From contig NZ_JAHKPT010000007.1 of assembly GCF_018860635.1 (NCBI RefSeq), positions 1 through 64,000 of the forward strand: a DNA stretch of 64,000 nucleotides, in the 5' to 3' direction. The translations under genes were made by a program, and so were the position numbers. Shown one piece after another: positions 32,940 to 57,524 of the stretch. The notes beneath the pieces were generated by a model. It saw nothing but the letters and a program-made list of their open reading frames with translations, had not been told where the DNA came from and did not search any database. The DNA comes from Aliiglaciecola lipolytica (GTDB lineage: Bacteria > Pseudomonadota > Gammaproteobacteria > Enterobacterales > Alteromonadaceae). Numbering within the stretch: the first letter of the stretch is position 1; the number at the start of each line of letters is the position of its first letter.

Positions 32940-34925
32940 CTAGGGAACAATTTCGTTATCACCAATACCAGAGGTAGAATAAATTCCTTTTGATGGAATG
33001 CCTCCTTTGGTATTTGCATAAAATACTTCTTGACGTTTTTCTATTGCATCGAGGATATTTTCTACGGTTTTCCCCTCTAAAATACCGGAAAGCATATCGA
33101 TAATCTCGTGGGGATTAACCTTAGCAGCGTCCGTGGTAAAATAGGTGGGTACTCGAGAACCAATCACATCTGTATTTTCAGTATTTCCGATTTCGCTGCG
33201 GACTTCATCCAAATAAGCCATTGATGTACACGCCTGGAAAAACAATACACGATATTTATCAGGGTCAAACTGATCACTTGCTACCATCTCTTTTAAATCA
33301 TGTTCAGTATCCATTTCAACACCATGTTTTTTGGCTTCTTGATAGCGAGTGCCTCTTCCTGCAGCAGCCATAGCCGCATCAATTCCGATTCTAAAATTTT
33401 CTAAAGGAGATGCTTTTTCATCAAAATCTGGACCGCTCCCGTATCGAGCATGACCGTTATAAAGGGTAATTTCCGATGATGAAAGTCCAGCTCCAAACGC
33501 ACTAGCGGCTCCTACTCCAGGTTCAATTAGGTGTACCCAGACACGAATATCTCTTGTTTCAAAACTGCCATCACTTTTAGGGAAGCGAATAGGCGTGCGT
33601 AGTGCCCAAAACTCATCTGAATTTATTCCTAACAAAGCCAGAGCAAATCCACGAGCTGTCAGCCAGTCACGAAATATACGAGCAGAGGCTGTACCACTAT
33701 CTTCGCCGCTATCCTTGCGTTTATTATCAATATCGACAAATGAGGTATTAACACCTGCATGACCAAAGGCAACCGTCACGTCTAAGCGGTTGTCGGCTAA
33801 CAATCTGCTGTAATCAAACACATGCTCATGACGCTGATCAACAGCTGGCGCGACCTGATCTAAAAGAATAATTGCATCCTTATCGCACTTATCCAAATCA
33901 TCACTTAAATATCTCGAACGGAATTGGCTGATAGCTAAACGAGTTTCATCTCCATAGCTACCATCTACGCGATGTAAAGGTAGATCGAATCCCATATCAT
34001 CCAACGCTCTTTGCACCTTAGATACTGCACCATGAATACCGTTTTGTTGGCTACTTAATGCCTCAATCTGACCATTAGCAATTTTTGTGAGTTGCGGGTC
34101 ATTTGCAAAGCGCGGGTTATTCAATACAACTAGCGGCGAGTTTTGTTCACTTGGTTTACGTTGTACAGAATGGCTATATCCACTGCTCCCCCCTTTACTT
34201 TGTTGAACCACATGAGTCAATTCATGGGCTAACAAATGCATACTATTAGGTTGATTGGCTTGGTAAGCCCCTTGATTAAAAACAATATGATTGGCATAGG
34301 TAAACGCTTTAGCTTTTATACCTTTGGCCGCTTGATTGGCCTCACTATTAGTATGTATCCTCACTCCATCAAACGAGCGATTAAAGCGGCTAGAGAAAAA
34401 TCGGTTCTCTGCTGTAGACAACGGATTACCTCTGCCATTCAAGCCATTAACATAGAAACTTAAGTGACTGGGTTGCGGGTTACCATTATGAGCCGTGTTT
34501 GAATTTAAAGTTGAATTTTCAGTCTTGGCAGAGGCTCGCGGAGATTGAAACCTTGAAATATAACTAACCTTACCACGATTGCCGCTCATCACTTGATTGG
34601 CAATCGCATCTGCCTCTTGTTCATAGGCATCATTGGCCGGCCCCACGGTTAACTTTGTTTGTAGTGTTAATGTCTCTTCTTGCTGTTGTTCACAGTGTTC
34701 GCATTTTCGCTGTATCGGGCTGCTTGGCAAGGGAGAACTGACCAACCTTCCCCATAAGGGATTCATTGGCGTTATCCCTGCGCGTTCAGTAGCGTCTTGT
34801 TTCGCTGATGTATGCTCAGCCGAATTGGCAGCATGAAAAGCCTCAGCAGGCTTTTTTGCTGCTCGTCTTGCGGATATTTCACACTGATTAGCAACACTTG
34901 ACTGAGCTTTCAGCATAGCTTTCAC
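32940..34925 (-). CDS. eCIS-associated DUF4157 protein with peptidoglycan-binding-like and caspase-like domains (probable cargo)
   Basis: This 661-residue protein is the last gene of the contractile injection cluster. Visible parts: a CxxC segment RKCEHCEQQQEE (about residues 73-84); the DUF4157 (eCIS core) zincin-like domain (about 90-245) with HELTHVVQQ (His234, Glu235, His238); a PGBD-type helical repeat (about 296-356; VSKVQRALDDMGFDLP, DGSYGDETRLAISQFRSRY); and a C-terminal domain (about 365-640) of no assigned family. The latter has strand-His ITLYNGHARYG (His492) and strand-QAC YRVLFFQACTS (Cys566). This is the catalytic dyad signature of clan CD cysteine peptidases (caspases, gingipains, legumain). 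DUF4157 proteins are known as markers and cargo-leader domains of eCIS. I infer a proteolytic effector loaded into the tube. It has no signal peptide and starts 10 bp after the 1420-residue gene. Confidence 0.85.
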   Translation of the reverse strand: MKAMLKAQSSVANQCEISARRAAKKPAEAFHAANSAEHTSAKQDATERAGITPMNPLWGRLVSSPLPSSPIQRKCEHCEQQQEETLTLQTKLTVGPANDAYEQEADAIANQVMSGNRGKVSYISRFQSPRASAKTENSTLNSNTAHNGNPQPSHLSFYVNGLNGRGNPLSTAENRFFSSRFNRSFDGVRIHTNSEANQAAKGIKAKAFTYANHIVFNQGAYQANQPNSMHLLAHELTHVVQQSKGGSSGYSHSVQRKPSEQNSPLVVLNNPRFANDPQLTKIANGQIEALSSQQNGIHGAVSKVQRALDDMGFDLPLHRVDGSYGDETRLAISQFRSRYLSDDLDKCDKDAIILLDQVAPAVDQRHEHVFDYSRLLADNRLDVTVAFGHAGVNTSFVDIDNKRKDSGEDSGTASARIFRDWLTARGFALALLGINSDEFWALRTPIRFPKSDGSFETRDIRVWVHLIEPGVGAASAFGAGLSSSEITLYNGHARYGSGPDFDEKASPLENFRIGIDAAMAAAGRGTRYQEAKKHGVEMDTEHDLKEMVASDQFDPDKYRVLFFQACTSMAYLDEVRSEIGNTENTDVIGSRVPTYFTTDAAKVNPHEIIDMLSGILEGKTVENILDAIEKRQEVFYANTKGGIPSKGIYSTSGIGDNEIVP

Positions 34926-34935
34926 CTAATTTTGA

Positions 34936-37900
34936 CTAATTAAGATTTAACAACAATTTTTTATCCATGTTCTTTTCCGCTAACGTTGGCGTGCGGGCTT
35001 TAATTGTCGCCATTCGTGTTGCTAGCCCTGCTTCTTGCAATACTTTTTTTAACGCCCTAGCTTGCTTATCTGCGGTTTTTACCGATGCCGCTGAATCATC
35101 TTTACTGACTAATTCGATGGTTTTTATTTGGGTTGAGCTTTCAGTTAAATTTTTTATTTCCTTCTCTAATGCTGCATCGCGAATTACCTCGTTATTATCG
35201 TCAAACCTAACCACGCGGGCTAAATCTCCCGGTACCACACCAATGATTAGACTCGGCGTTATTATAACGAAGGTGATCACCGGACAATTGCTCGGAAATG
35301 AAGTGCGTTGACTCGCCATTATAGAATGATTTGGCGAGTCACTTAGGTTAAGCAACTCAGCTATAACTTCATTCTGACGTTTAGTTTGATCCACATTCGG
35401 TTTATATTCGAAATTGCCGTGGGCAACAGCAATAGGTTTAATGCTGGAATAAAATGAAATTGCACTACCATTATTTAGAAGTTCCCGTAAGGCAATATTT
35501 GTGCTCAAGTGTGACTGCCAATTGTTCATAAACAATTGACGAGAACTCGCTTCAGGCTGATTAGTGTCCCAGTAAAATTGCATTGAATTAAGCTCATAAT
35601 AAGCGGCTTGGTTACTTCCAACCCCAGTATCAAAATCAATTAGAATTTGATCTAATGCAGTTCTTTGCGCTTCATCGACTTGTTGGCCGGGAATGATTTC
35701 AATATCAAAGTCCGAGGATGTGACTAGATACACTTGATGGCACTGCGTAGCACTTAACAGTACAGAGGCTTTTTGACACTCACCAAACATGCCTCTAGGT
35801 ATGGTTAACGTGTCCATATTTTCATCAGGCTCATCCGTCGCTATTCCCAACGTGTTAACAATAGTGTTGGTTTGCTCACGGGTAATTTGCGCGTTATCCT
35901 TATCTTCTGAGGGGTGAATGGCACCAGCATGAGTAATGATATAATTCCCAGCTTCCAGCCAAATATCTTTTAAGTTAGCAACTTGATGCTCTGAAATGAA
36001 ATCACCTGTGCCCTTTTTAAACAGTGGCTGCACATTTAATTTTTTATCATTGTTACTATCAAATACACTGTCTAAGGTGATATTTGAACCCGGCACATAT
36101 TTCGATACAAATTGGTTAATCCTAATCAGTACTTCTTCAGGATTAGACGTCAGAACGTGGTATACAGTATGACAATCAGTTGCTATTTGTTGCTGCTGTT
36201 GCTGAACAAAATACACTATAGCGCCATCTCTTTCGCCGGCATTTAGAGACGACGGTAGTGTTTGTTTCACCACGACTGGAATTCCTGTGGCAAAATTGCT
36301 CACATCATCAAGTACCGCGTTAGTACTATTGACTCGAGAAGTAGCAATCGCATCCCCTTCACTCACCACGTCACCAGCACTTGCAATAGCGGCTATTAAC
36401 ACTTGCGCCTGACTGGTTACTGCACTTTTCCATGCTTCTTGTAAGGCTTTATGAGCAGTATTTATCACCGCTGAACTGGCTGAGAACTGCACATCAACGA
36501 CAGGTTTTGCATTGGCGATTGTCCTTTCGAACGTCCGTTCCATTGACGCTAGTAGCTTTTCTGTATCCGCATCGGCGGCAACTTCCACAAGATAGATCTG
36601 GTATAGTCGCGTTTCCTGAAACACCTCTGGAATAGATCCTCCTTCACATGCTTTAGTCCGTCTTCGATGGAATAAAACCCACGGATATTGTCCCTTAACC
36701 ACAAGTTCGTTGGGTACTTTTTCCGGTGGCGGGAATAAGAGATGACTGGCAGTTTCGACAAATCCTTGATTATTCAGAGCGCCTGCGATTTGGTTTAATG
36801 CAAGCAATGACTTGTTGTAAAAAAGATTACCTGGGATTAACACCCTTTCATCAGGTACAAATTTACCTGACAAAAAGTTACCTTGTGTCGGCGTTCCATT
36901 TACAACCGTGCTGATTTGACCGACTACTTCACATTCACCTGCAGCATTCCATATTTGCGAATAGGTCATATCAACTAAATCAGAGTTACCAAAAAGTGAG
37001 GGGCTAGGTATGTTAATCACAATATTTGAACCGAACTCAGTGGTTTCTCGACTTAATATAATATCGTCATTGAGGTTAGCGCCCGTCACTTGATTTATAG
37101 GTGTTCCGTCAAGTGTTGTGGTGTATTGCAATGTGCTGTTGCCCACAAACCGGCCATTTAATTTTTTGGTTTCATTGCGCTGGGAAATAGTTTCGATAAT
37201 CACCTGCCCAGTGATGTTCAGCTCAATAATGATATCCAGAGCAACATCGCGATCGTTGCCTGTGTAGCGCAAGCTCATCTCCATTATAAAGCGCGCAGAC
37301 ACTTGCGCCCTAGCACCTGAGTTTAGGGAAAATACATCTTTATCAGATTGCATCTGTCCCCATAAATTCATATCTGCATTTACTTTTTGACCTTCAAATG
37401 TGGTCGAAGCAGAATTTTCGGTTGCCAAATAAAAAGCTAATTTGTTGTCACTATTTTCGGCTCTAGCAGCACCGGTCATGTCTTTACCAAAATCAAATTG
37501 CTGAGCAGATAAGATAGTGTCGCTGGCATTAAGGTTAGACCTCTTTGAAGCAGAATGTAAAACCATTTCATCACGGATACTATTTTTGTCCAAAGTGCCT
37601 TTAAAGGCATCCGCAACTAAGTGCAACATCATGCCAAGACCAGCATCGGATGAGTCAATGTGCGCTTGAAATCCAGGTTGAATTTGCGCTTGTTCTAAGA
37701 GGTTAATCTGCCCCTCAGGAACCAATATATCGACCTCTTGAATATTTGCAGCATTATCCAGACCAGAGAGCAGACATATGCGCTGCATATGTTGTGCTTC
37801 CTCTAAAGCATGATGAACAAAGTCTTCGCGAACTGCGCAAAAGCGCAAATCTACGCCCTTGCCCATTAATTGATAAACTTGCTGATTAATCGATAAGTCA

Positions 37901-39198
37901 GAGTCTGCTACCACTGGCAAATAACCAGCACTGGGTAATTCAACAATGCCGCAATCAATTAATAATTGTTGGCTTATTTGACTACTTCCTACCGCTTGCA
38001 ACCTGTCGATGCTAACCCGCAATGCATCCACATCTAAAGTGGCAATACTGACTTGCGATTCTATACTGGCTTTGGGTAATTTTTCAATTTGGGTAAGCTT
38101 TGCAGACATGTCCGTGTAGTAAGACAACAAACGTTGCATGTCTGCTGCTGCGCTTTTAAGTAAGGCTTTTTCATCCGCACAGGGATCATGGGTAACGGGG
38201 GGATCAAGGGGATCAAAACTGCCTAGACAATCCCTCAATTGACATTGGAATTGTAATATCTGTGCCAGATAAATTTGCCAGTTGCGCATGCCCATTCTAG
38301 CCGCCCAATATTGCTGAGCCGGAGGTACTATGCGCTCACGGCGAACGCTCCAAGCATCTAAGAACACCACTGTTTCACCAATTTTTGATAACATACCAAT
38401 GGCGATACCTTCGCCACTTAATCCTTCGGCTCCCAAACACCAAGTCGCGGCGTTGAGTCCTTGTTGGCTGATAAGTGATGAAATGGCATTCTTTTCTTGC
38501 TCAAAATAAGCACTCACAGTACGTGAGCGAAGATGTTTTTGGGCCAAGCTAACATGAGTGGAACTTTTAAGTGCTTCAGTTAATGTAAGGGGCACAGCTC
38601 GAATACTTAAGCCTTCAACGATATGAGTGCGCTGGGTACTGCTTATGCACGCCTCCGAGCATAATTTACCGTAAACGTCTTCTTCACCGCAGTAGGCTTC
38701 TAAGTGATACAAAACAATCAAATACAATTCTTGATTGGCAAGTACGTTGTTTGAACCTGTATCGGATTTGCGCAACTCACAGGCTATAAAGTCACTGCTA
38801 ATGAACTCGCTGGATTTAGGCTTTGCCGTGGATGTATTTTGAGTTTGAACCAGCAATTGGCCTAACCCAACTTCGATATCCTGACTTAACACCAACGCTC
38901 TGCCTTGCCAGTCATATCCGAGCCCAGCGCTGATCGCTATCTGTTGGCCAGAAGCAAGGGTACAGTCAAAGCCATTTACAATACCACCACCGGCTGCCTG
39001 ATTGGACAAACGTATTTGGTTCAACAATGCAGCTTGTTCTAATTGCAGATCAGGAGCACGTAGAAACTTACCATCAAAATAATTTAAACGAGTGAGTGAA
39101 CTAGAACTGTCAATAACATTGTGTCCGCTAGCGTTGGCCTGTCCAGCGGCATTACTCGATATTTTACTACTCACATTGGAAGGTTTAAGACTACTCAT
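34936..39198 (-). CDS. Large eCIS-linked protein of unknown function (1420 residues)
   Basis: I recognise no enzyme family. The N-terminal 100 residues (LTRLNYFDGKFLRAPDLQLE, ending GGIVNGFDC and ISAGLGYDWQGRAL) match a module also present at the N-terminus of the preceding 471-residue protein and common in phage and eCIS structural proteins (pattern YFDG-LL-DDF-EQ ... G-GVV-GL ... G-A-D--GRE). A middle part (about 620-760) is beta-rich. The C-terminal 500 residues contain Gln-rich helices (YFVQQQQQQIATDCH) and repeated Cys-His segments (QKASVLLSATQCHQVYLVTS). There is no signal peptide or membrane segment. It overlaps the 471-residue gene by four bases (ATGA). Possible roles: surface fibre, spike accessory or very large cargo carrier. 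Confidence 0.7.
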   Translation of the reverse strand: MSSLKPSNVSSKISSNAAGQANASGHNVIDSSSSLTRLNYFDGKFLRAPDLQLEQAALLNQIRLSNQAAGGGIVNGFDCTLASGQQIAISAGLGYDWQGRALVLSQDIEVGLGQLLVQTQNTSTAKPKSSEFISSDFIACELRKSDTGSNNVLANQELYLIVLYHLEAYCGEEDVYGKLCSEACISSTQRTHIVEGLSIRAVPLTLTEALKSSTHVSLAQKHLRSRTVSAYFEQEKNAISSLISQQGLNAATWCLGAEGLSGEGIAIGMLSKIGETVVFLDAWSVRRERIVPPAQQYWAARMGMRNWQIYLAQILQFQCQLRDCLGSFDPLDPPVTHDPCADEKALLKSAAADMQRLLSYYTDMSAKLTQIEKLPKASIESQVSIATLDVDALRVSIDRLQAVGSSQISQQLLIDCGIVELPSAGYLPVVADSDLSINQQVYQLMGKGVDLRFCAVREDFVHHALEEAQHMQRICLLSGLDNAANIQEVDILVPEGQINLLEQAQIQPGFQAHIDSSDAGLGMMLHLVADAFKGTLDKNSIRDEMVLHSASKRSNLNASDTILSAQQFDFGKDMTGAARAENSDNKLAFYLATENSASTTFEGQKVNADMNLWGQMQSDKDVFSLNSGARAQVSARFIMEMSLRYTGNDRDVALDIIIELNITGQVIIETISQRNETKKLNGRFVGNSTLQYTTTLDGTPINQVTGANLNDDIILSRETTEFGSNIVINIPSPSLFGNSDLVDMTYSQIWNAAGECEVVGQISTVVNGTPTQGNFLSGKFVPDERVLIPGNLFYNKSLLALNQIAGALNNQGFVETASHLLFPPPEKVPNELVVKGQYPWVLFHRRRTKACEGGSIPEVFQETRLYQIYLVEVAADADTEKLLASMERTFERTIANAKPVVDVQFSASSAVINTAHKALQEAWKSAVTSQAQVLIAAIASAGDVVSEGDAIATSRVNSTNAVLDDVSNFATGIPVVVKQTLPSSLNAGERDGAIVYFVQQQQQQIATDCHTVYHVLTSNPEEVLIRINQFVSKYVPGSNITLDSVFDSNNDKKLNVQPLFKKGTGDFISEHQVANLKDIWLEAGNYIITHAGAIHPSEDKDNAQITREQTNTIVNTLGIATDEPDENMDTLTIPRGMFGECQKASVLLSATQCHQVYLVTSSDFDIEIIPGQQVDEAQRTALDQILIDFDTGVGSNQAAYYELNSMQFYWDTNQPEASSRQLFMNNWQSHLSTNIALRELLNNGSAISFYSSIKPIAVAHGNFEYKPNVDQTKRQNEVIAELLNLSDSPNHSIMASQRTSFPSNCPVITFVIITPSLIIGVVPGDLARVVRFDDNNEVIRDAALEKEIKNLTESSTQIKTIELVSKDDSAASVKTADKQARALKKVLQEAGLATRMATIKARTPTLAEKNMDKKLLLNLN

Positions 39199-40610
39199 GA
39201 TCCGCTCCTTGTTTTAAACATGTAGATAAAATCATTGCCCTGATAAGCGCTACCTGCAGGGCTGTCGATGCCTCCTGCTAAAGGGATGCGATTACGCCCT
39301 AAAATCGGCGTCTCTCCCGTCCCTTTAACAATCAATCTCACAAGCACACCAGCTGGGGCATCACGCAGTTCTATCTGCAAACGATTTTCCGCACTTTGGT
39401 AAGAAACACGTTTGATATCGCAGTTCACCCAACCATCTCGAGTATCAAAAGCCGTCACACTAATTCCTTTAACGTCGACACTGGCTTTCATTAAGGGGGA
39501 ACCAACAACTGTCATATTGATAAACTCGCTGTCTTGCATAGCAACGCTTTGTGAATCAATTCGAGGGCCACCAGCATCATCTTCTGGCGTCACAGAAATA
39601 TTAGCGACTGACTCCTGTGTTGGATGGCAACTACCGCACAATAAGTCTTGAATAGTTGTGGTGGGCAATAAATAGGGCCGCACAAATGGATCGACTTCCC
39701 CCTCTATCAGTTGCCACCCTTGTTCGTCTTTATGCAACCTTAAACCATGTAAATTTGCTAACAGCACTTTGCAAGGTGGTGGCTGAGGAAAACTGCCAAA
39801 TTGGCTACTGCCAACGCTACTTTGTGGTCTGATATCAATGCCATCTAACACCGCAAAATGATTAAACCAATGTTGGCACAGCGCAGCTTTATCGCTGGGT
39901 TCAGCTGCCAGTATCTGTGCTTTGGCTTGCAAAACATCCGCGTCACTTTCTAAAATGATTCCGTCATCATCTTCTCTGGCCTCAACCAAACCAAATAGTA
40001 AATTCAAGCGATAATAGTCAGTGCTTGCAGACTGCTGATACCCACCTGGTGACAAATACACTTTGACAGTCTCGACAACCCGAGAATAAGCCGTTGAGGT
40101 GCTGCTTGCATCACAGCTTTCGCTCAGTGCTGGCACTTGGCGACTTAAACAACCATGAAATTCCAAGGTCACATGGGCGTCAAATATCACGTCACCGCTT
40201 TCTTCATCCACAGTGACGACCTGTTGCAGTGCAACCTCGTCTTGATTGGCTTGATACCAGGCAGCTAAATTTAAGCACGCAGCCTGTTCTAAAAGTAATT
40301 CTCGGCCTGCGGCATCCATGGCCAAACCAGAGGTAACTTTTACTTCTCCCAAGAACCGGGTTTGCTCAGAATCTTCACTATCCGCTTGCGGCAAACTCAC
40401 ATCTAGGCCCCACACAACGCCCTGCCCGTGCAACCAAGCATTGTGATACCACATTTTGCCACGATGGTAGGCATCTAAAGTTTGAAAATCGTCGACCCCT
40501 AGGAGCATGCCAAAATGCACATACAGAGATCGAAACGGATCCACTGGCAACATTTGGTTAGATAAACCAGCAGTGCCAGATGTTTGATTCACTAATGCTT
40601 CTGCGCTCAC
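39195..40610 (-). CDS. eCIS-linked protein with N-terminal 'GVVWGL' module (471 residues)
   Basis: The function is unknown. The N-terminal stretch YVHFGMLLGVDDFQTLDAYH, then WLHGQGVVWGLDVSL and VTSGLAMDAAGRELLLEQAA (about residues 30-130), is the same module seen in the 1420-residue neighbour. Related modules occur in phage-tail-like clusters. A Cys-rich segment IQDLLCGSCHP (near residue 315) and a C-terminal beta domain (about 350-470) follow. It lies 19 bp behind the AAA+ ATPase gene and overlaps the 1420-residue gene by 4 bp, so it is in the same transcript. It could be an adaptor on the particle's tip or fibre network (inference). Confidence 0.7.
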   Translation of the reverse strand: MSAEALVNQTSGTAGLSNQMLPVDPFRSLYVHFGMLLGVDDFQTLDAYHRGKMWYHNAWLHGQGVVWGLDVSLPQADSEDSEQTRFLGEVKVTSGLAMDAAGRELLLEQAACLNLAAWYQANQDEVALQQVVTVDEESGDVIFDAHVTLEFHGCLSRQVPALSESCDASSTSTAYSRVVETVKVYLSPGGYQQSASTDYYRLNLLFGLVEAREDDDGIILESDADVLQAKAQILAAEPSDKAALCQHWFNHFAVLDGIDIRPQSSVGSSQFGSFPQPPPCKVLLANLHGLRLHKDEQGWQLIEGEVDPFVRPYLLPTTTIQDLLCGSCHPTQESVANISVTPEDDAGGPRIDSQSVAMQDSEFINMTVVGSPLMKASVDVKGISVTAFDTRDGWVNCDIKRVSYQSAENRLQIELRDAPAGVLVRLIVKGTGETPILGRNRIPLAGGIDSPAGSAYQGNDFIYMFKTRSGS

Positions 40611-40629: not shown

Positions 40630-42687
40630 TTATGATGGGTTCACTTCTCTGAAGGCCTTGCCGGTTTTTTCAAACTCTTTGCGAACAGCCATAATGAAGT
40701 GCTCTTGTTGTATATCTTGTTGCTGTTGCGCTGCAGAAAAAGCAGCAGCAACGGCAGCATTTCTAATTTCTCCACCGACCAACGGAAATAAAGAGGCCAG
40801 TTGAGTAAAATTCACATCTGCGTTTAAGGGCGCAGTTTGTGGAACATGACAACGCCATAAGTGTTCCCTATCGGTCACATTGGGCTCACGAAAATCCACG
40901 ATAAAATCAAGTCGACGAATGAACGCCACATCGATGTTATTTCTAAAATTCGTGGCTAAAATTGTCATCCCGTCATACGCCTCTAAACGGGTTAACAAAT
41001 AAGCCGTTTCAAGATTTGCATATCGGTCGTGGGAATCTGTTACCTCTGTTCGTCTGCCAAAAATGGCATCCGCCTCATCAAACAATAAAACCGCCTGAGA
41101 CTGCTCGGCAAAACTAAAGACTTTTGCCAAGTTTTTTTCGGTTTCTCCAATCCACTTAGAGACCACGGCTGCCAAATCGACAACCAGCAAATCAACCTGC
41201 AGTTCATTTGCCAATACTTCAGCAGATAGGGTTTTTCCAGTACCGGGGACACCAGAAAAAAGCATCCGTACTCCTTTAGCTCCTCTTCGGTTTTGCAAAA
41301 ACTGCCATTCATCTAACACCTTGTATTGTAATTTCAAACGACCAATGGCTTCTCGAAGCTGCTGTAATTTAGTCTCTGGTAACACTAAATCTGACCATCC
41401 TAACCTCGGCGTCACTCGTTTAATTCCTTGCGGTAACAGCGCGCCAGAATACTGCTTAAATGCATGACTAATGTCGCTCAGTGAGTGTTTTTTTTGTGTT
41501 GATTGATGTAATGAACGCCAACTTTTGACCCGCTGCATTGCGTGATAAGGATCAAGTGGAAACCAAGAGGCAAGCTGTCCAGCGTCAGATGCAAACTCGG
41601 GTAACAACGTCTGCCACATAAGCAAAAGTTCGTTGTGTTCAAGGCGTTGCACGGGAAGATCTAGTTTAATACAGCCAGATTCGATGATATTGATATTGCT
41701 AGTTGCGCAAATGATCACACAAGGACAAAATTGATTGAGCACACCTAAATGCAATGCGGTGGTGCTGCGTTGACTGTCGTAAAGTAAAATAGGGACAGCA
41801 GCAGACAATACACAATGACATGCCAATTGTTTATATTCTTGCTGGCTAAATTGGTCGTTAAGTTGCACCACTACGGATTTACGCTTTGTTTCTTCTAGTA
41901 ATGCTAATGCGCGGTTCAAACTGACTAAATTATCCATATCTTGAATCATAATATGGGATTCAAGTGAGTTCGAAATACACAGCTTTGCATCTTCAACAAT
42001 CGCCGTTTGTAACCACTTAGACAATCCCAGGAAACAACTCTGGATATTCAAAGCAGGCGTCTGTAAAAAGCAAGACTTTCCGGTATTTATTGCATACCAA
42101 GTATTGGCGTTAACCATAATTGATTGGGTGAAAATTGGCGCTTGATCTGCTATTTCCACAATCCCAAGGTCGAACAAAACCGACTCATTTAAACAATTAC
42201 ACAAAGATTCTCGGAGTGGCTGATCAGTGCACACCAATTTTGCTAACAGTGCAGCTGTGGGATAAGGCTGTTGCCGCGGGTGTAAAGAACAAAACAGATT
42301 TGCAAAACCTTCATGTTCTTGTGCCATTCCACCTAGTACTAACAACTGTATTTCCAATTGCGAAAGATTCAAGCCAAGGACTAGACGAGACAAAGCACTT
42401 TGTGCGGAAGTTGTTTCAGATGCATTTGAGTGAGCTTGTTGCACGCTTTTTTTGTAATCGTCGATGGACTGCAAATAGCTATGCAAAAAGTCCACTCCAG
42501 ATTGAATGTAGGTATCATCTTTACTAAAATTCACCTCTAACAACTGAATTAAGTTATTGGTGAGAAATACTACTTGTTCTAGCACAGGACCTCTGCACTC
42601 GGCCGATGGCTCAGTACCAAGAACAGAATCAAATAAAGGAACAGGTTGCTTAGCGGCGCCCGCTAAATAATGTAATGAGTCATTCAT
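40630..42687 (-). CDS. AAA+ ATPase of the contractile injection system (Afp15/Pvc15-like)
   Basis: The 685-residue protein has an N-terminal helical region (about 1-420) and a C-terminal AAA+ module. Walker A is SGVPGTGKTLS (about residue 478), Walker B AVLLFDEADAIF (about 533), and sensor 1 TILATNFRNNID (about 565); the arginine finger region is AFIRRLDFIVDF. In Afp and PVC clusters the same kind of ATPase is always present and is needed for assembly or effector loading rather than sheath recycling. It resembles ClpV neither in length nor in having two AAA modules. It overlaps the tape-measure-like gene by 8 bp. Confidence 0.93.
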   Translation of the reverse strand: MNDSLHYLAGAAKQPVPLFDSVLGTEPSAECRGPVLEQVVFLTNNLIQLLEVNFSKDDTYIQSGVDFLHSYLQSIDDYKKSVQQAHSNASETTSAQSALSRLVLGLNLSQLEIQLLVLGGMAQEHEGFANLFCSLHPRQQPYPTAALLAKLVCTDQPLRESLCNCLNESVLFDLGIVEIADQAPIFTQSIMVNANTWYAINTGKSCFLQTPALNIQSCFLGLSKWLQTAIVEDAKLCISNSLESHIMIQDMDNLVSLNRALALLEETKRKSVVVQLNDQFSQQEYKQLACHCVLSAAVPILLYDSQRSTTALHLGVLNQFCPCVIICATSNINIIESGCIKLDLPVQRLEHNELLLMWQTLLPEFASDAGQLASWFPLDPYHAMQRVKSWRSLHQSTQKKHSLSDISHAFKQYSGALLPQGIKRVTPRLGWSDLVLPETKLQQLREAIGRLKLQYKVLDEWQFLQNRRGAKGVRMLFSGVPGTGKTLSAEVLANELQVDLLVVDLAAVVSKWIGETEKNLAKVFSFAEQSQAVLLFDEADAIFGRRTEVTDSHDRYANLETAYLLTRLEAYDGMTILATNFRNNIDVAFIRRLDFIVDFREPNVTDREHLWRCHVPQTAPLNADVNFTQLASLFPLVGGEIRNAAVAAAFSAAQQQQDIQQEHFIMAVRKEFEKTGKAFREVNPS

Positions 42688-44248
42688 AATAAAACTTCAC
42701 TACGTAACCTAACCATGGCACATAATCAGGATTCAAATCTAAACCTGCAGTACGGATTTGCGTATCAATCGCATCCATTTCAAATACAATGTTTACCCAA
42801 CCGGCTTGATACTCTATCCGTGCATTACGCTGACATAACCAGTCAAATGTCTTGCTCACGTTGTTGTTCAAAGGTTTAGCTAAGCTTGTGTATATTGCTA
42901 ATTTAATTTTCTCGGCAAAGATTTGATAGTCAGCCTTATCCTCAGTGCTGATAGCACAATCATCATCTTGAGTTGGCTCAAACACCATTAATTCACCACT
43001 GAATACGTTAAGCGCAGGATCGAATGTCCCTTGTGGCTGTAGATATTGGCCCAATAGGTTTAATTGCTGAATAAGTGGGTAAGGTTTATCCACTAAAGTT
43101 GCTAATTGTTGTTGCCATTTTGGCTGTTTAAGAATATTCAATACATACAAAATTCCAGCAAAGCTGCTTAACAGCGCCACTTTTTCTGCACTTAGCACGG
43201 AAATAGGTTCTGTCTGACGAAAAACAGTGAAGTTATTGTCATTCTGCTGTTTAGTCGCTTGCAGGCTATTTGGTTGGTTATGTTGGTGGTTGAAAGGAAA
43301 TGCGGTGGAAACGACTCCAGCCACCGTTTTAATTTCCTCAACTAATTGCATCACGTAGGCAGTTAAACTCTGATTATTGGAAATAACCTTACGAACACCA
43401 CTACCCGACCATTCCGATAAAACGCCGGAAAATAGTAAACACTTAATATCATCCACATTCAGTTTTGTTATTTTATTAAGGTCAATTCCTGAATGTCCGT
43501 TATTTAACTGCATGCTTAAGTAACCTTTGATCCATTCAGGCAACAGTGTAATTTCATCAATACGACGATTACTCTGTGACGCTAAATAGCGGCGAAAGGT
43601 AACAACAAGGCCTGACCAATTAATCTCTACATGGGTGTTGATATGCGCTGTAATAGACACCCAATTTGGCGTAAATTCTAACAATCCACCAATCAGTTTC
43701 AGGGCATCATCAAACTCAATAATTCTTCGTGCAATTAAAATCTCTAGTCGGCCCTCAACAGCGAGTCCAATTAACACCGCTTTGAGCAGAGTTGGTTGCC
43801 TAATTAGATAGGCCAGCCATTGTGATTTCGCTTCTTGCAGGTTTAGGCTAGATTGAGAGACAATCCCCATTTGATGCCATGCCCAAACATGACTAAGTTG
43901 TTGCGCTGCCAAATCAATAGCAACGGATTTAAGGGCTTCAACTTTTGAGCGATAATGAATCCATTTTTTAGCGTCAGCAGTTGCAAATAACTTCTGTAAA
44001 GATGATTCAAGCTCGATTAGCCAACATTCAAATATCTCAACATCAGTTTTGCTGTTATCAAAATCGATGGGCAGATACCAATTGCGAATACAGATTATAT
44101 CTCTTTGTGAATATCCACTGTGCAATAACGCCAAATCAACGTACTCACGTAATAATTGTTCGGTGAGGTAATCTAATCTCGCCTTGTAAGTGCGTTGAGA
44201 GGCGCTTAACTGATAACGACGCAATACTTGATTGATTTGAATGTCCAT
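42680..44248 (-). CDS. Contractile injection system tape-measure-like protein (Afp14/Pvc14 position)
   Basis: This 522-residue protein has no catalytic motif. Its start (QRTYKARLDYLTEQLLREYV, then WYLPIDFDNSKTDVEIFECW) has the arrangement of the eCIS tape-measure family. In that family an early section resembles a length-measuring helix region followed by a long helical body (here rich in Leu/Gln helices to about residue 480). The gene directly precedes the AAA+ ATPase, as Afp14 does. It is shorter than the 2000-residue Afp14, so if it is the ruler the particle should be short. Alternatively it is a chaperone/adaptor for the ATPase. Its ATG overlaps the preceding stop (TGATG). Confidence 0.65.
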   Translation of the reverse strand: MDIQINQVLRRYQLSASQRTYKARLDYLTEQLLREYVDLALLHSGYSQRDIICIRNWYLPIDFDNSKTDVEIFECWLIELESSLQKLFATADAKKWIHYRSKVEALKSVAIDLAAQQLSHVWAWHQMGIVSQSSLNLQEAKSQWLAYLIRQPTLLKAVLIGLAVEGRLEILIARRIIEFDDALKLIGGLLEFTPNWVSITAHINTHVEINWSGLVVTFRRYLASQSNRRIDEITLLPEWIKGYLSMQLNNGHSGIDLNKITKLNVDDIKCLLFSGVLSEWSGSGVRKVISNNQSLTAYVMQLVEEIKTVAGVVSTAFPFNHQHNQPNSLQATKQQNDNNFTVFRQTEPISVLSAEKVALLSSFAGILYVLNILKQPKWQQQLATLVDKPYPLIQQLNLLGQYLQPQGTFDPALNVFSGELMVFEPTQDDDCAISTEDKADYQIFAEKIKLAIYTSLAKPLNNNVSKTFDWLCQRNARIEYQAGWVNIVFEMDAIDTQIRTAGLDLNPDYVPWLGYVVKFYYE

Positions 44249-46488
44249 CAGCCAACCCTCGAGTCAAAACCCACTTGACTATTACCGACTATGGTTCCAT
44301 ATTTGGCCTGCCCCAATACATCAGTTGTACCCAGAATCGATTTGCCAATTTGCAATTGTCCAAATCCTGAACTTTGACCAACCACCGAAGACATACCTAA
44401 ATGCAAGCCAGTTCCCACCCTCATACCTGAGTCAACGGAACATATATCGAAAACCGTATGCGCTGGACGATGAACCTCTAAAATATGTTCAATTACAGCA
44501 CGCTTTTCTTCATCTAGAATTAGCGGCACTATGACGCTGAATTTATGGGCGTGCAGTGCTATTGCATCAGAATAGCTAAAGGACGATTGTACATCTGCTG
44601 CATTCGAATCTTGCTCATTGATAACACTGGTAGTATCAGCCTCCCCTAATTTTCCGCCAATCCGAAAGCCCGCGCCAAGAATCGAGTTTGCCGCTAGGGA
44701 ATCATCTTCACCGACAAATGCACCACCTAAACCGCGCACCTGATAATGCTCAATAATGGTGATATCACGCTGTAAATAAATTTCGATAAAACGCTTTAAT
44801 CCAGCGACAGTACCGCGATATTTAAATAGCCACATTGCGTGTTTAATGATCTGTCTTTGGGTTGTTTCAGGCCAACGATTGTCAAGCTCTATTCCAAGTA
44901 AACTGCTAAGCCAAGGCAATACAGATATTGGTGAGCAAAGTGGATCGAGTAAACAATGGCGCGTATCCGAACGTTGTTCAAGTTCATCAAAATTAGTGTT
45001 TAATAAGGTTAAATATCGATGTAAAAAGTCACTTGCAGCCCCTTGCTCTGAAAAAACACGGGGTAAACGTCGTAATAAATCCAGCGCAGGATATTCCACC
45101 CGAATATTTTTGATCTTAGGTGATGCATGTGATTTTCCAAAGAGATCGATGACTAACCAAAGATAGCGCCCTGGCGGCGCATTAACCGGTGCTTCATAGG
45201 TCCGCCAAGGTTCGTCGCTAAACGACCAAGGTAATTCTCGGTTTTGACTACGTCTATGCAATTTTTGACTAACTAACACTTCATTTACCGCTAATTTAGA
45301 TGGCAGCGGCGGCGTTAGATCAGGTCTGGTTAATTCATACTCTCCAATATTTTGTGGTGCAGTGGCGTCTACTTGGGGACCATTTAAATGTTCATCACTA
45401 ACAATGTAACCCAGTTTCATAGAGGTCCCAACCGGCAAACAGGCATCAATGAATATCCTACCCCAGCGACGTTGCATTTCATTATTATCGAGCCTAAAAC
45501 ACACTATGCGACCTTGGCTGCTATATTGAATTTTGGCCACAGTTGCATACATCAATCCTTTAGCAGACCAATAAACCACTTTGCCAAAGGGGTCTAATGC
45601 CATGCCCCGTCCGTCATAATAAGGAGCTTGCAGGTGAGGCATTTGCGCAATACTGTTGGGAGTGATTCTAAACCGCTGAAAATCTGCATTTGGCGCGCCA
45701 GACACAACAATCATATTATCGTCAGTAGCTAAAATATCACTGGCAAATGGGACGTCAATTAATTCATTTTCGCCATCTATCGCCCATAGCACCGCAGACT
45801 CCTCGCCTGCGCCTAATAATACGAAGATGCGGCCATCTGTATTGACTGTCACACTATTGATAGCTAAATCACTGACATCATTGGGAAACTTAAGATCCAT
45901 TTCAATTGGCATACTAGTGGCGTCAAATCTGACTAAGCTAGTAGATTGATTGAGCTGATTGCCCATATCCGGGGGTGTCACCGGCGACACAACAACAAAT
46001 ACTTGTTGGCCGTCACCACGAATGACACTGGGGGTGCCGTCGAGATGAACACTGCGCAATAATGTATTGTCAATTAGATCAAATATTAAGATCCGCTGAT
46101 TGCCGCTATCAGCAATAAATAGTCGTCCTTTTTTATCCACAGCAAGACCGATAGGAAGACTTAAATCAGATTGCACTTGTTGACCAACAAATTCACCATA
46201 AACCTGTTGCGATCTATGAAACAGAGATTTAGCCAAACTTGGCTGGCGCTTTTCAGTCCATAATAATTTATTAATCCCATTGTCTTCAGGAACCGAATGA
46301 TAAAGACGACACCAAGGGTCAAACGTCAGACCTGCGGGTTTCACTTTAAAAGCATGGGAATCGTGCAAGTGTTGATGATGCCAGGCCAACTGAACGATTT
46401 GTTGTTGTATATCCACACTGGTATTTTCGTGAGCGACACGCATCCACTGATCAACACCGGCAATCATGGCAAACTGAGACATCAGCAC
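44248..46488 (-). CDS. Baseplate protein: NHL beta-propeller fused to tail protein I (Afp12-like)
   Basis: The 746-residue protein combines two parts. Residues about 100-400 contain NHL-type blades (GLAVDKKGRLFIADSGNQRI, SVTVNTDGRIFVLLGAGEES) forming a probable beta-propeller. Residues about 470-610 are a phage tail protein I / gp7-like wedge domain (LDLLRRLPRVFSEQGAASDF, WPETTQRQIIKHAMWLFKYR, GTVAGLKRFIEIYL). In Afp the wedge protein Afp12 connects the baseplate to tail fibres. Since no separate fibre gene is seen, the propeller may provide surface binding (inference). The 7-bp overlap with the J-like gene marks tight coupling. Confidence 0.85.
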   Translation of the reverse strand: MLMSQFAMIAGVDQWMRVAHENTSVDIQQQIVQLAWHHQHLHDSHAFKVKPAGLTFDPWCRLYHSVPEDNGINKLLWTEKRQPSLAKSLFHRSQQVYGEFVGQQVQSDLSLPIGLAVDKKGRLFIADSGNQRILIFDLIDNTLLRSVHLDGTPSVIRGDGQQVFVVVSPVTPPDMGNQLNQSTSLVRFDATSMPIEMDLKFPNDVSDLAINSVTVNTDGRIFVLLGAGEESAVLWAIDGENELIDVPFASDILATDDNMIVVSGAPNADFQRFRITPNSIAQMPHLQAPYYDGRGMALDPFGKVVYWSAKGLMYATVAKIQYSSQGRIVCFRLDNNEMQRRWGRIFIDACLPVGTSMKLGYIVSDEHLNGPQVDATAPQNIGEYELTRPDLTPPLPSKLAVNEVLVSQKLHRRSQNRELPWSFSDEPWRTYEAPVNAPPGRYLWLVIDLFGKSHASPKIKNIRVEYPALDLLRRLPRVFSEQGAASDFLHRYLTLLNTNFDELEQRSDTRHCLLDPLCSPISVLPWLSSLLGIELDNRWPETTQRQIIKHAMWLFKYRGTVAGLKRFIEIYLQRDITIIEHYQVRGLGGAFVGEDDSLAANSILGAGFRIGGKLGEADTTSVINEQDSNAADVQSSFSYSDAIALHAHKFSVIVPLILDEEKRAVIEHILEVHRPAHTVFDICSVDSGMRVGTGLHLGMSSVVGQSSGFGQLQIGKSILGTTDVLGQAKYGTIVGNSQVGFDSRVG

Positions 46489-48671
46489 ACTTCCTTAATC
46501 ACTGGCACAGGCACAGCTATGGCATCAGATTCAGTGGGCGATATAATCTCTCCAGGGCTGAGGGTAATGGGGCCGTTTTCAACAGTGATAGCAATTAATT
46601 CCGGTACCTCATTCTTTTGCAGCGTAACAGTATTCGGAATTTCATTGCCTGCAGAATCCCACCCGACCAATTCCAAACCTTCTAAATATTCGACCCCTTC
46701 GACTTGATGGGCTGCGGCTTCCAATTCAGCGTTATGCACTCGACGTCCCAGCGGCCAACCATGCCCGCCTGGTCCATAAGGGGGTAAGGGCGCTAGAAAT
46801 TGACGCAATGCCAGTTCCACCCAATGGCGAACTGCATCAATACCGAAGCCATTTTTCACTTTGACTCCCACAGCAATGGCAACCGGCACATACTTAGGCG
46901 GCAACACATATATTTCCGTGGTGATTAAACGTCTCGCATCTAAAAATCGACAGACACTACGAAGCTGATTCTTGTTAGGAAGTGGCGCATTAGGATTGTG
47001 TTTATCTTCTTTTGGCCACACCACCACACTAACAACACCGGCAGATTCTAATTGTGGTAGTTGAGGATGATAACGGGGTAAAACTTCAGCACGAGCCAAA
47101 TCCGCACCAGGTGCCTGCAGCGCTAATTCTTTAAAATCTGAACGGGTGACAGCTCGATTGCGTCTGCGCAGCTCACTGGGGATCCGCTCTAAAGCGGCTT
47201 CCAAGGTTTCTGCATCTGTACCGCCATAAGCATTAAGGGGATTACTCACTTTGACTAGCGGATTAGCAACAAGTTTGTTAATTGCTGCGGCCGCCACATT
47301 ACCTACTCTGCCACCTCCGTAACGATATTGAATCACTCTTACCCGTTGACCTATTTGCACAACGGCTCCGTTAATACCTGTGCCAAAACGGATTTGTCCA
47401 CCTTGCTTATCCAGCATAAAATGCCGATCACTTTCAGTGCTTGCATAAAAGCCTTCAACTTCGTGCCAGTCGGTCCAGCCTTGGGGCTCTTCAACTTGCA
47501 ATCTAACTGAGTTGGCCAATACCTGTTGATGATTTAGTGCATAAACTTGATTAGGTTGGCCGTTTCCGGTGCCAATAAATTCAGACTTCCCTTGAACCGC
47601 TTGTTCAGCCAATGTGGTATTAGCGCCAATAAAGGTAATTTTACCAATGGCAGTGTCATCATTGCGAAAAGCACGCAACCAACAAATAACCCGAGATTGT
47701 GTATCGTCATCCAAAATGGGGGGGAAATCGCCAACGCCCTGCATGTTGACATCATCGAGTTGATACACCGACATATTTTGCTGTTCAGTGGGCATTTGCA
47801 AACGAACGACGCCTTCTTTTTCTAATCCGTTGGTGGTATCTCCTTGTATCTGCAACGGATAATAGATAGGTTTATTTTGACTATTAATTCGTCCCGTAGA
47901 TATTTGCCAACTAACCGGACTCCCCGTAGCTTGCATCCCTTCGCCAGGACAACGAAAACGTAGTGCAAAATCGGCACTATGGTGATCAAGATCGTCCTCT
48001 AATCTAATCTCAGGAATGAAACCGATATTGAGTAAAAGAGGCGCTTTGGGATGCGCCAATAAATTTTGTTTAATCAATTCTGTTTCTATGGCTTTTTCTG
48101 CCAATATGGCCACCCACAAAATCCCATCAACTGAGCTATTCATATCCCTGGAAAGTCCAGGCTCATCCTGCCAAATCGTTTCGGTGTGATAGGGCTGGGT
48201 TGCACTTGCATCAACACTTGCCGCTGCCTGTTGATAGAAAATACCTTCTTCGCTATCTTCATCAGGAACTTGATCGATTACCTTGAGCACACCTAGGGCA
48301 GATACCGGTAAAACATGTACTTCTTGCAAGGTGGTAAATTTCAGATCACCAGCGCTAGCTTGACTCGCTAGCTTGGCAGCAACACCTTGCGGTTCTTTTG
48401 TTGATAAAGACAGCATTGCGGTGGCTGGATACGCACTTTTTAATGGAATTTGTAACAGCCGCAAAAATTCTATTTTGGTGGAATCGGGTATTTGATTAAA
48501 ACGATAGAGCAGATTTTCAGTCAAATAAGAGAATAATTCGATCAGAGCAATCCCTGGATCGCTAGGGTTATGATCCGTCCATTCGGGCGCGTAGACCGGG
48601 ATACGTGCTATCAATTCATCACGGATTTGCTGATATGATCGGTCGTCTAAAATCGGTTTATTTAGGCTCAT
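46482..48671 (-). CDS. Baseplate J-like wedge protein (Afp11/gp6-like)
   Basis: The 729-residue protein has the J signature near the N-terminus (DHNPSDPGIALIELFSYLTE, NLLYRFNQIPDSTKIEFLRL, residues about 30-75). A central insertion of beta structure follows. The conserved C-terminal half has RRNRAVTRSDFKELA, LPPYGPGGHGWPLGRRVHNA and ELEAAAHQVEGVEYLEGLEL. It forms the baseplate ring around the spike together with the gp25-like and tail-I-like proteins. It is followed by the propeller fusion (overlap 7 bp) and preceded after 6 bp by the gp25-like gene, in canonical Afp9-(10)-11-12 order. Confidence 0.92.
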   Translation of the reverse strand: MSLNKPILDDRSYQQIRDELIARIPVYAPEWTDHNPSDPGIALIELFSYLTENLLYRFNQIPDSTKIEFLRLLQIPLKSAYPATAMLSLSTKEPQGVAAKLASQASAGDLKFTTLQEVHVLPVSALGVLKVIDQVPDEDSEEGIFYQQAAASVDASATQPYHTETIWQDEPGLSRDMNSSVDGILWVAILAEKAIETELIKQNLLAHPKAPLLLNIGFIPEIRLEDDLDHHSADFALRFRCPGEGMQATGSPVSWQISTGRINSQNKPIYYPLQIQGDTTNGLEKEGVVRLQMPTEQQNMSVYQLDDVNMQGVGDFPPILDDDTQSRVICWLRAFRNDDTAIGKITFIGANTTLAEQAVQGKSEFIGTGNGQPNQVYALNHQQVLANSVRLQVEEPQGWTDWHEVEGFYASTESDRHFMLDKQGGQIRFGTGINGAVVQIGQRVRVIQYRYGGGRVGNVAAAAINKLVANPLVKVSNPLNAYGGTDAETLEAALERIPSELRRRNRAVTRSDFKELALQAPGADLARAEVLPRYHPQLPQLESAGVVSVVVWPKEDKHNPNAPLPNKNQLRSVCRFLDARRLITTEIYVLPPKYVPVAIAVGVKVKNGFGIDAVRHWVELALRQFLAPLPPYGPGGHGWPLGRRVHNAELEAAAHQVEGVEYLEGLELVGWDSAGNEIPNTVTLQKNEVPELIAITVENGPITLSPGEIISPTESDAIAVPVPVIKEVC

Positions 48672-48677
48672 CCTTAG

Positions 48678-49079
48678 CTACTCCAGATAAAAGGGAAATA
48701 CAAGATTTTCACGACTTCCGTCCTGAACATGAGAATATCGAATGCTGATCATTGCGACAGAGGGATCTTCGCCACCATTCACTTTGACTTCTTCGAGCTT
48801 TATTCTTGGTTCCCAACGGCTAAGCGCGCGTTCAATATCCCGCTGTATCCCAGACCAAGTAGCAGAATTATTCGGTTGCATTAAGTAACGTCGTAAACCA
48901 CAGCCAAAATTAGGTCGCATAATTCGCTCCATAGGCTCAGTCTGCAAAATCATCCAAATTGACTGTCGCACTTTTTCAGCACCTTCAACATAAGCGATAG
49001 TTTTATCTGCTTGGCTAGGTTGGACTGGAAATGCCCAGCCCTTGCCTAAAAATGCCTTCAGTGGGGACGACTGGGTCAT
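48678..49079 (-). CDS. gp25-like baseplate protein (Afp9-like)
   Basis: This 133-residue protein resembles phage T4 gp25 / baseplate W. Its core GWAFPVQPSQADKTIAYVEG, SIWMILQTEPMERIMRPNFG and CGLRRYLMQPN is well conserved. The Glu-Arg region EPMERIMRP is the family signature that nucleates sheath assembly. It overlaps the upstream membrane-segment gene by 4 bp and lies 6 bp before the J-like gene. Confidence 0.92.
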   Translation of the reverse strand: MTQSSPLKAFLGKGWAFPVQPSQADKTIAYVEGAEKVRQSIWMILQTEPMERIMRPNFGCGLRRYLMQPNNSATWSGIQRDIERALSRWEPRIKLEEVKVNGGEDPSVAMISIRYSHVQDGSRENLVFPFYLE

Positions 49080-50927: not shown

Positions 50928-51587
50928 TTACCATAAGTTACCTACCCCAGGAGTATAAGAAGGTGACACTACAGCGGCACTGGCGATGAGCGTTGTACAA
51001 TTGATAATACCGTCAAAATTAGCCACTGGTGCGTGCACGTTAAACGCCGCAGCGTTCAATTCAACCGTAGAATTAGCGGTAATTTCGATGGCACCAGACG
51101 CTGAAAATTCGATTTTATGCCCACCTGAATGTGTCAACGTTATGGCACTCGATGCCTCATCCAATATCAGTTCATGCCCACCTGCGGTTTTTAATGTAAT
51201 TTTGGCCGCTCCTTGACTATCATCAAATTTAAGTTCACTTCCCGAGCGGGTTTTTAAGGTACGAATGTTGTTTGCATCTTCAGCTTGTTCCGGTGGCACA
51301 GCCGCACCGTTCCAACAAGAACCGATAATATAAGGTCGACGCAAATTACCTGCCTCAAACGCAACGACCACTTGAGAATCTACTTCAGGCATAATTTGTA
51401 AACCTTGATCATCATCCGCATAAGGTGTAGTCAACGTACTCCAAGCTTCAACATTTGAATCACTCAACCAAGGAAAACTGACTAACACTCTTCCCAAATT
51501 TTGAGGATCAACAAGATTTACCACTATCGCCGGATAAACACCGAAATAGCGTTGTCTGCCGCCATCAGGCGCATATTGATTTGTCAT
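50928..51587 (-). CDS. Spike/baseplate V protein (gp5/VgrG C-terminal half, Afp8-like)
   Basis: Start ATG 51587 is chosen because AAGGAG lies 6 bp upstream; the longer reading from 51620 has no ribosome site. The product has 219 residues. An OB-fold gpV domain (RYFGVYPAIVVNLVDPQNLG, RVLVSFPWLSD, MPEVDSQVVVAFEAGN, about residues 10-90) is followed by a triple-stranded beta-helix of short repeats (TLKTAGGHELILDE, ITLTHSGGHKIEFS, IEITANSTVELNA). This is the VgrG spike portion. The matching gpD portion is encoded by the preceding gene, so the spike is split in two polypeptides. The C-terminus ends in a plain tip with no PAAR or effector extension. Confidence 0.9.
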   Translation of the reverse strand: MTNQYAPDGGRQRYFGVYPAIVVNLVDPQNLGRVLVSFPWLSDSNVEAWSTLTTPYADDDQGLQIMPEVDSQVVVAFEAGNLRRPYIIGSCWNGAAVPPEQAEDANNIRTLKTRSGSELKFDDSQGAAKITLKTAGGHELILDEASSAITLTHSGGHKIEFSASGAIEITANSTVELNAAAFNVHAPVANFDGIINCTTLIASAAVVSPSYTPGVGNLW

Positions 51588-51649
51588 CTGCCACTCCTTA
51601 AATGCATGTTGTATCCTCAATTGAAAATTGTATAAATAAATCCATCTCG

Positions 51650-52726
51650 CTAATTAATATATGCTCGTTGAGCTTCAAAATGAGTTTGATGCCCCTCCGC
51701 CAAGGTGAATAATTGCTCCAGCTTAGTTACGTAATAACCATCTCCAGAAAACGGTGTTCCAATTTGCTCTAAAGTAATAGAGCTACCGACTACTAAATCT
51801 GCAACACCTACCGATATGGCATTGACAGTTACAAATTGCCGCGCCCTGCGTTGCATCTCAGCTATCGCCCAAACTGAAGCCTCTTCAGCTTGCAAGGGCA
51901 CTTCCATTACGCGTTTGCTAATCCGTTCACCAAAGGCATTTTTCAAGATACTGACACCTGAACGCCCTGCTCCGATTTCGCTGCTAATGGCATCTTCATC
52001 TACCCACTCATCGATGGGTTGTTTTTGCATAGCGTCATATCCAGCAACGTGCACTTTTGTTTTTTGATGGGCTAAATCTGCACTTACCCGTACCTGCATC
52101 AAATCTGTGCCTCGAATTAACGTTAAACTAGTGCCACTGCGCTTATCTCGCGTTTTAAAATGTAAGGTTTCAGCATCTACCCATACTTCTGCTTGCAATA
52201 AACGGGCGCGCTCCCGCAAAAATGCAAGATCGCTCATATTGCACTGCTGAATTTGGTTATAAGTAGGTCCATCCGCATCCACCTCAATTTGTAAACCATG
52301 TTGGTTGGCGATTTCCTCGACAATTTGTTGATCACTCATTTCTTCGTAGGTTTTTGAGATACGAGTCATACGCAAATCCATCAATCTATCTTCCGCGCAA
52401 AAACTAAATTCTGGCTCTTGTCCTTCTTCAAAATGGATTTCCAACGCACTGATATAGCCATTAAAAATCAATCGCTGCCGGCTACCTGCACCAATGGCTA
52501 CTTTCACCTGTTTGCCGAAATCCAAATAACGTCCATCTAAATACAACAAACTCTCTGCTCTTTGCCCTGCCATTGGTCCAATTGCGGTAAACCTTGCTTC
52601 AAGGGTTTTGAGTCCGTCTAGCCCCTCTTTTACACTCATGTACACCACATCTCGAATCAGTTCATTGATGTCTTCACCATCCACGTTAAATGCTGGTTTG
52701 GCGTTAAAAAATAGCGAGTCAGTCAT
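51650..52726 (-). CDS. Spike/hub protein gpD-like (VgrG N-terminal half, Afp8-like)
   Basis: The 358-residue protein resembles phage late control protein D and the N-terminal part of VgrG/gp27. It has the tandem beta-barrel arrangement: DVVYMSVKEGLDGLKTLEAR near the start, then GYISALEIHFEEGQEPEFSF, MSDLAFLRERARLLQAEVWV, and VEVPLQAEEASVWAIAEM-like C-terminal sequence. It forms the hub between tube and spike. It lies 62 bp before the gpV gene, while its own ATG overlaps the end of the 56-residue gene. Confidence 0.9.
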   Translation of the reverse strand: MTDSLFFNAKPAFNVDGEDINELIRDVVYMSVKEGLDGLKTLEARFTAIGPMAGQRAESLLYLDGRYLDFGKQVKVAIGAGSRQRLIFNGYISALEIHFEEGQEPEFSFCAEDRLMDLRMTRISKTYEEMSDQQIVEEIANQHGLQIEVDADGPTYNQIQQCNMSDLAFLRERARLLQAEVWVDAETLHFKTRDKRSGTSLTLIRGTDLMQVRVSADLAHQKTKVHVAGYDAMQKQPIDEWVDEDAISSEIGAGRSGVSILKNAFGERISKRVMEVPLQAEEASVWAIAEMQRRARQFVTVNAISVGVADLVVGSSITLEQIGTPFSGDGYYVTKLEQLFTLAEGHQTHFEAQRAYIN

Positions 52727-57024: not shown

Positions 57025-57050
57025 TGAATTGCTCCTAAATTACCAACCAA

Positions 57051-57500: not shown

Positions 57501-57524
57501 AACAATAGTCCTCTTGTAAATTAG

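Follow-up and report, generated by a model that had tools for sequence, protein, structure and literature searches.

The question raised by this locus is what its eCIS particles might carry into a target cell. According to PMC11297309, 983 of 1130 predicted DUF4157 eCIS toxins are without a second annotated domain. In the stretch of DNA analysed here (64,000 nucleotides of an Aliiglaciecola lipolytica contig, hereafter the window), the product of one gene, judged by sequence, is probably a clan-CD-like eCIS effector of putative clan-CD-like fold. It would be a concrete protease candidate, in which the catalytic dyad can be named, the domain holds a single cysteine and congeners have another module at the same slot, and it would make the function of an eCIS payload directly testable. 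If the cassette reading given below is true, related species would use one and the same syringe to deliver different payloads.

The eCIS locus and its last gene

All genes and domains of the window listed below with coordinates as far as position 59432 are encoded on the minus strand. The effector gene is the last in a same-strand row of eCIS genes, with the structural and ATPase genes upstream of it. From the far end of the row, these genes encode a second tail sheath protein (57525..59432), a second gp19-like tail tube protein (57051..57500), the tail sheath (54949..57024) and gp19-like tail tube (54413..54949) proteins, a CIS_tube protein (52886..54373), a Phage_GPD baseplate hub protein (51650..52726), a Phage_base_V spike protein (50928..51620), a GPW_gp25 baseplate wedge protein (48678..49079), a Baseplate_J-like protein (46482..48671), a Tail_P2_I-type protein with an NHL repeat and a CIS12-family match under the cut-off (44248..46488), the AAA+ ATPase of the locus (40630..42687) and a 471-aa protein with a weak CIS13-family match (34.6 bits versus a cut-off of 370; 39195..40610). 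Beside the effector gene, and marking the cargo slot, is a gene of 1420 aa with a weak N-terminal CIS13 match (19.5 bits, cut-off 370; 34936..39198). The two sheath and two tube genes, which differ in length, belong to a single eCIS locus (54413-59432). A PEP-CTERM-type gene (61743-62645) adjoins the locus; its PEP_CTERM sorting domain scores above the cut-off (19.4 versus 16 bits) and its match to the exosortase-dependent XDP1 family falls below the cut-off.

The effector gene (32940..34916) lies in an open frame, 32940-34925, that is real and amounts to 661 aa when counted from a GTG at 34925. The gene probably starts instead at the in-frame ATG at 34916 (658 aa), because AGGTG precedes this ATG and because a leader-sharing congener gene (L091) starts at the corresponding Met. 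Residue numbers are counted here from the GTG; with the ATG start, His492 and Cys566 become His489 and Cys563. No promoter or terminator signals above those of shuffled sequences were found near the gene.

A sequence-only reading of this DNA had ascribed to the frame a DUF4157 core with HELTH, a PGBD-like domain and the motifs NGHA (His492) and QACTS (Cys566). The motifs were found exactly where that reading had put them, with HELTH at residue 234, NGHA at 490 (H492) and QACTS at 564 (C566). The DUF4157 core was likewise confirmed, since the eCIS_core (DUF4157) domain that contains HELTH (residues 168-245; 34191..34424) was matched in a Pfam hmmscan with E 2.4e-25 and 89 bits, above the curated cut-off of 22. 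The PGBD-like domain was borne out in part: a PG_binding_1-like stretch was matched at residues 300-336 (33918..34028), inside the exchanged module described below, yet its score of 20.1 bits (E 7.4e-4) is under the curated cut-off of 23, and the corresponding match in the homologue from genome G006 is also sub-threshold. Residues 300-343 in addition match PDB chain 4nso_A, named only 'Effector protein', with E 0.0016. This stretch and a putative clan-CD-like catalytic domain (residues 366-661, 296 residues; 32943..33830) make up the C-terminal module (residues ~266-661; 32943..34130). We place the activity of the effector in this module because growth inhibition by Cgo1, a DUF4157 effector, is reported in PMC11297309 to be independent of the metalloprotease motif.

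A convergent gene ends 54 bases past the stop of the effector gene and therefore leaves no space for an adjacent immunity gene; the corresponding gaps past the leader-sharing genes of genomes G003 and G001 are 104 and 48 bases. By an argument made in PMC3482391, a cargo gene with no immunity gene beside it fits a distant target, which might for example be eukaryotic. The sequence-only reading had proposed that the gene product is an eCIS cargo, and there is good support for this in the make-up of the locus, in the leader domain, in the cargo slot and in the differing C-terminal modules that are found behind related leaders.

Differing C-terminal modules at one cargo slot

Over residues 1-245, counted from the ATG, the leader of the window protein shares 67% identity with that of a G003 gene, 53% with that of a G001 gene and 51% with that of a 561-aa gene of G006, a genome placed in the window's genus. 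The C-terminal module of the window protein has no match in these three leader-sharing genes; its only match, which begins at about residue 266, is to a 581-aa gene of G006, with 63% identity across 396 residues. The leader of this homologue (L003 5131-6876) is divergent, with HEATH instead of HELTH and only 37% identity to the window leader over 81 residues. The contig in question (L003), listed as uncultured Alteromonadaceae, is the closest named relative. In G003 and G001 the leader-sharing genes are in the same slot, with the large CIS13-like gene on one side and, on the other, the convergent transporter-like gene that is also found in the window, and in G006 both types of cargo (the 561-aa and 581-aa genes) are found in tandem. 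The G006 homologue is followed, 89 bases on, by a same-strand gene of 241 aa that resembles a Sir2-type deacetylase by eye; the labels Sir2-type, CDF-type and MerR-type for neighbouring genes are all such by-eye readings, without a basis in family searches.

The alternative C-terminal module behind the related leaders (L091 8588-10342, L092 8813-10555 and L003 3434-5119) is 65-74% identical among the three species. It has no Pfam match above cut-off (the best is Thi4, at 17.9 bits versus 26.2), and it appears helical and partly hydrophobic by eye; it may be a membrane-active payload. The occurrence of unrelated modules behind related leaders, in the same slot or in tandem, indicates that effector cargo is exchangeable at this locus. 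The simplest reading is that modules were exchanged by recombination, either between tandem cargo genes or as a cassette composed of the PGBD-like stretch and the domain that follows it. The more specific proposal, that a new clan CD family serves as eCIS cargo and, moving as such a PGBD-plus-protease cassette, became joined to another leader at an effector slot that is itself fixed, is one that we offer tentatively, with confidence that stops a little short of even.

An eCIS_core domain was found in 13 of the 60 genomes searched, the window genome counted. Elsewhere in the window genome, a different contig encodes a second eCIS_core protein (L002, G000:C27:467018-467236; open frame 1348 aa). 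The window module has no match within the ~730 residues of this second protein that were compared, and the two proteins match in the leader part only, at ~30% identity over 231 residues.

Conservation of the domain and its candidate catalytic dyad

The putative catalytic domain is narrowly distributed in the genomes searched. In the set of 147 genomes of relatives it is present in two, the window genome (counted among the 147) and G006; a pattern scan of genome contigs returned 29 stretches, of which one was a relative. A profile of the domain gave matches in 1 of 369 genomes of a class sample, 3 of 394 of an order sample, 2 of 289 of a second class sample and, at E 0.1 or less, 13 of 398 of a phylum sample, and beyond the window genome and G006 the matches in these class, order and phylum samples (own genome counted where included) were weak and partial only. 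Three loci considered as possible relatives (L006, L007 and L018) were rejected, their ORFs resembling by eye a SurA/PpiD-type protein, an ABC permease and an exonuclease. L006-L014, L018 and L093, which take in all but four of the phylum-sample matches, lack the motif pattern described below. In plasmids the domain had no match by tblastn. One search of phages gave no domain match and another gave two, at E 0.7 and 9. A scan of viral contigs gave 28 stretches with no relative among them, and a second scan gave none. A further scan of the viral contigs produced 18 stretches; the seven that have the peptide in frame appear unrelated by eye.

Between the window protein and its homologue, 182 of the 291 aligned residues of the domain are identical. 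Cys566 falls in the longest unbroken run of identity, YRVLFFQACTSMAYLDEVRSE (21 residues), and His492 in the next longest, YNGHARYGSGPDFDEK (16 residues). The codon of His492 is at 33450..33452, in ITLYNGHARYG, and that of Cys566, the only Cys in the domain, is at 33228..33230, in YRVLFFQACTS. Other His residues of the domain that are kept in the homologue are 368, 389, 534 and 542, whereas 366, 465 and 606 are not kept. Within the identical runs 10 of 21 codons (Cys run) and 6 of 16 codons (His run) differ, so the identity of these runs does not come from very recent descent. The domain as a whole is under constraint, as its dN of 0.32 over 291 codons is well below its dS of 1.87, a value near saturation. 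The expectation of the sequence-only reading that His492 and Cys566 would be conserved in homologues thus held, both being invariant in the one homologue found; this invariance is weak evidence, because only that homologue is known.

In clan CD peptidases, as described in PMC4357240 and PMC12445089, strand 3 ends at the His and strand 4 at the Cys, and a Gly adjoins the His. The window domain has the His before the Cys and a Gly adjacent to the His (NGH492, QAC566). This arrangement exceeds chance: a pattern of the form hydrophobic-GH[AGS] ... hydrophobic-x-[AS]C turned up in 6 of 200,000 shuffled versions of the domain, and a second pattern in 4 of 200,000, both patterns having been composed after the target was seen. 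Among 662 stop-to-stop stretches from six-frame translation, each at least 150 aa long and many of them not genes, the GH[AGS]/[AS]C pattern fits the window gene and its homologue and none of the 660 others. It also fits 10 of 15 bacterial Peptidase_C14 (PF00656) domains of relatives, which share with the window domain this spacing of strand-GH[AGS] and strand-x-[AS]C but differ in that the window domain has no significant C14 profile score; the second pattern fits 9 of the 15. Both patterns fail on all 14 CHAT sequences and on the single C25 and C11 sequences. These comparison sets were built from the genomes of relatives: 15 of 16 matches were used for C14 (one with an internal stop was dropped), 14 of 19 for CHAT (one was short and four were without a locus), one of two for C25 (the other has an internal stop) and, for C11, the match from one of two genomes, that from the other being a fragment.

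The 25 best strand windows in a Chou-Fasman prediction, which is crude, include 380-388, 429-434, 458-468, 486-491, 557-566 and 587-597. Since windows 486-491 and 557-566 end there, His492 and Cys566 each close a predicted strand; of 291 windows, the Cys window ranks 3 and the His window 19. The top 25 also hold 392-399, 417-422, 510-515 and 634-639, which misfit the clan CD scheme, and window 417-422 falls, as read by eye, in the first helix of that scheme. Judged by eye, the elements follow one another as a strand, a helix that ends in GF, a strand, a hairpin, the strand leading to the His, helices, the strand leading to the Cys and a last strand, an order that the caspase/haemoglobinase fold would give. 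A second GHA motif, VTVAFGHAG, ends the first predicted strand with His389 (codon 33759..33761), also invariant; this residue could be close to the pocket, or could itself be the histidine of the dyad in place of His492.

Profile comparisons went against the clan CD reading. Against profile databases the domain matched at chance level only (best Pfam DUF6630, E 0.15; best NCBIfam PylC, 0.11; PHROGs none), and the best matches to PDB sequences had E 0.77 and 0.99. Peptidase_C14, CHAT (PF12770), C25 (PF01364) and C11 (PF03415) were not among hmmscan matches up to E 10, nor did the names Peptidase_C80, C13 legumain, C50 separase or YabG appear to that limit, provided that the library includes these models. 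In HMM comparisons the scores of the domain were within the range of its shuffles, of which, among those scored from 1000 made, 251 of 531 did as well or better for C14, 310 of 729 for C25 and 300 of 639 for C11; the CHAT profile gave the domain no score. The profile-profile comparison with C14 and C25 that the earlier reading had recommended, extended to CHAT and C11 and carried out with hhalign, went against it, with all probabilities below 1%. By eye, FQACTSMAYLDEV resembles what we take to be the cysteine stretch of C11. AlphaFold, run with an alignment of two sequences, reached a pLDDT of 31.0 on the full-length protein and of 41.7 on the domain by itself, values too low for a usable model; in the model of the domain both motif stretches were drawn as helical at pLDDT <50. 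A Foldseek search with this low-confidence model gave no match at E <=0.001 and no clan CD protein among the best 50 of 333 matches. The proposal of a clan CD order and sequence environment is accordingly supported in part, by motif, order and crude strands, but not by any significant comparison of profile, sequence or fold.

Proposed action, rival explanations and known systems

The explanation that we favour, with somewhat better than even confidence, is that the protein is a modular eCIS effector whose C-terminal module acts on target proteins as a clan-CD-like cysteine endopeptidase. The DUF4157 leader would mark the effector as one to be loaded into the tail tube, a step in which the AAA+ ATPase of the locus would probably help; the particle would then bind the target cell, contract and deliver the C-terminal module, whose His492-Cys566 domain would cleave target proteins. 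The PGBD-like stretch might, as a speculation, keep the module in place while it is being packed or when it is in the envelope of the target.

The same delivery could serve an enzyme of another fold in which a His also precedes the Cys, such as a clan-CE-like peptidase or a non-peptidase thiol enzyme (for example an acyltransferase), or a variant in which His389, being invariant and in a GHA motif of its own, is the histidine of the dyad. In its favour, a Gln is found two residues ahead of Cys566, none of the clan CD profiles tried matches the domain, and the His-before-Cys order is also given for clans CE, CL, CP and CQ in PMC12445089. Against it, the Cys of clan CE follows a loop that contains a Gln, whereas in the window domain a hydrophobic run precedes the Cys (VLFFQAC) and a Gly directly precedes the His. 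We regard an enzyme of this sort as unlikely. More doubtful is a binding or structural cargo domain without enzymatic activity, in which GHA and QAC are kept for folding; species of the same genus, as these two are, have much in common by descent. The presence of the domain, outside the window genome, in one relative (G006) of the 147-genome set that includes the window genome, the further samples that were convincing only for G006 and the low-confidence AlphaFold fold would all agree with such a domain, but the longest identical runs contain the His and the sole Cys despite the diverged DNA there.

Least probable, by a little, is a peptidase that processes its own protein, freeing or activating the effector and not itself providing the toxic activity. 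Most caspase-like domains of polymorphic toxins are read as releasing peptidases in PMC3482391. Such releasing domains, however, usually have a further toxin domain directly behind them, but nothing stands behind the domain of the window protein, and the same source reads the C-terminal-most caspase-like versions as toxins.

The reading as a clan-CD-like endopeptidase has precedents. At the thresholds used for the searches of Pfam, NCBIfam and PHROGs, the claim that the protein matches no named family is borne out, but a protein of this kind, with a C-terminal caspase-like toxin behind a PVC-metallopeptidase/DUF4157 domain, is known already from PMC3482391 (Zhang et al. 2012), where Tox-Caspase is listed with PVC delivery and an association with the PVC-metallopeptidase, itself equated with DUF4157 in PMC8213781. 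As likened by description, Tox-Caspase has a caspase-like His/Cys domain, sometimes the C-terminal-most, and the same leader domain as the window protein; the window domain differs in having no C14/CHAT profile match and a PGBD-like stretch in front. What is added here is this domain, its narrow distribution in the genomes searched and the finding that one slot holds different modules in different species. The word 'caspase' is absent from the main text, as available, of the eCIS toxin papers PMC11297309 and PMC8213781; among the titles listed from the open-access literature there is no report of a clan CD eCIS effector, and among the open-access matches listed no paper on this protein was found.

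Clostripain (C11) and gingipain (C25) share the clan CD order and the Gly-His with the window domain, according to PMC12445089, but differ in that there is no profile match and the motif pattern does not fit, with one comparison sequence per family. YabG has been proposed as a clan CD peptidase although its sequence is not homologous to those of the other members (PMC12445089), and the Tox-YabG row of PMC3482391 names PVC and the PVC-metallopeptidase. YabG resembles the window domain in its His-Cys order and Ala-Cys motif, and differs in the spacing of the two residues, which PMC12445089 places at 161 and 207, 46 apart, compared with 74 in the window domain.
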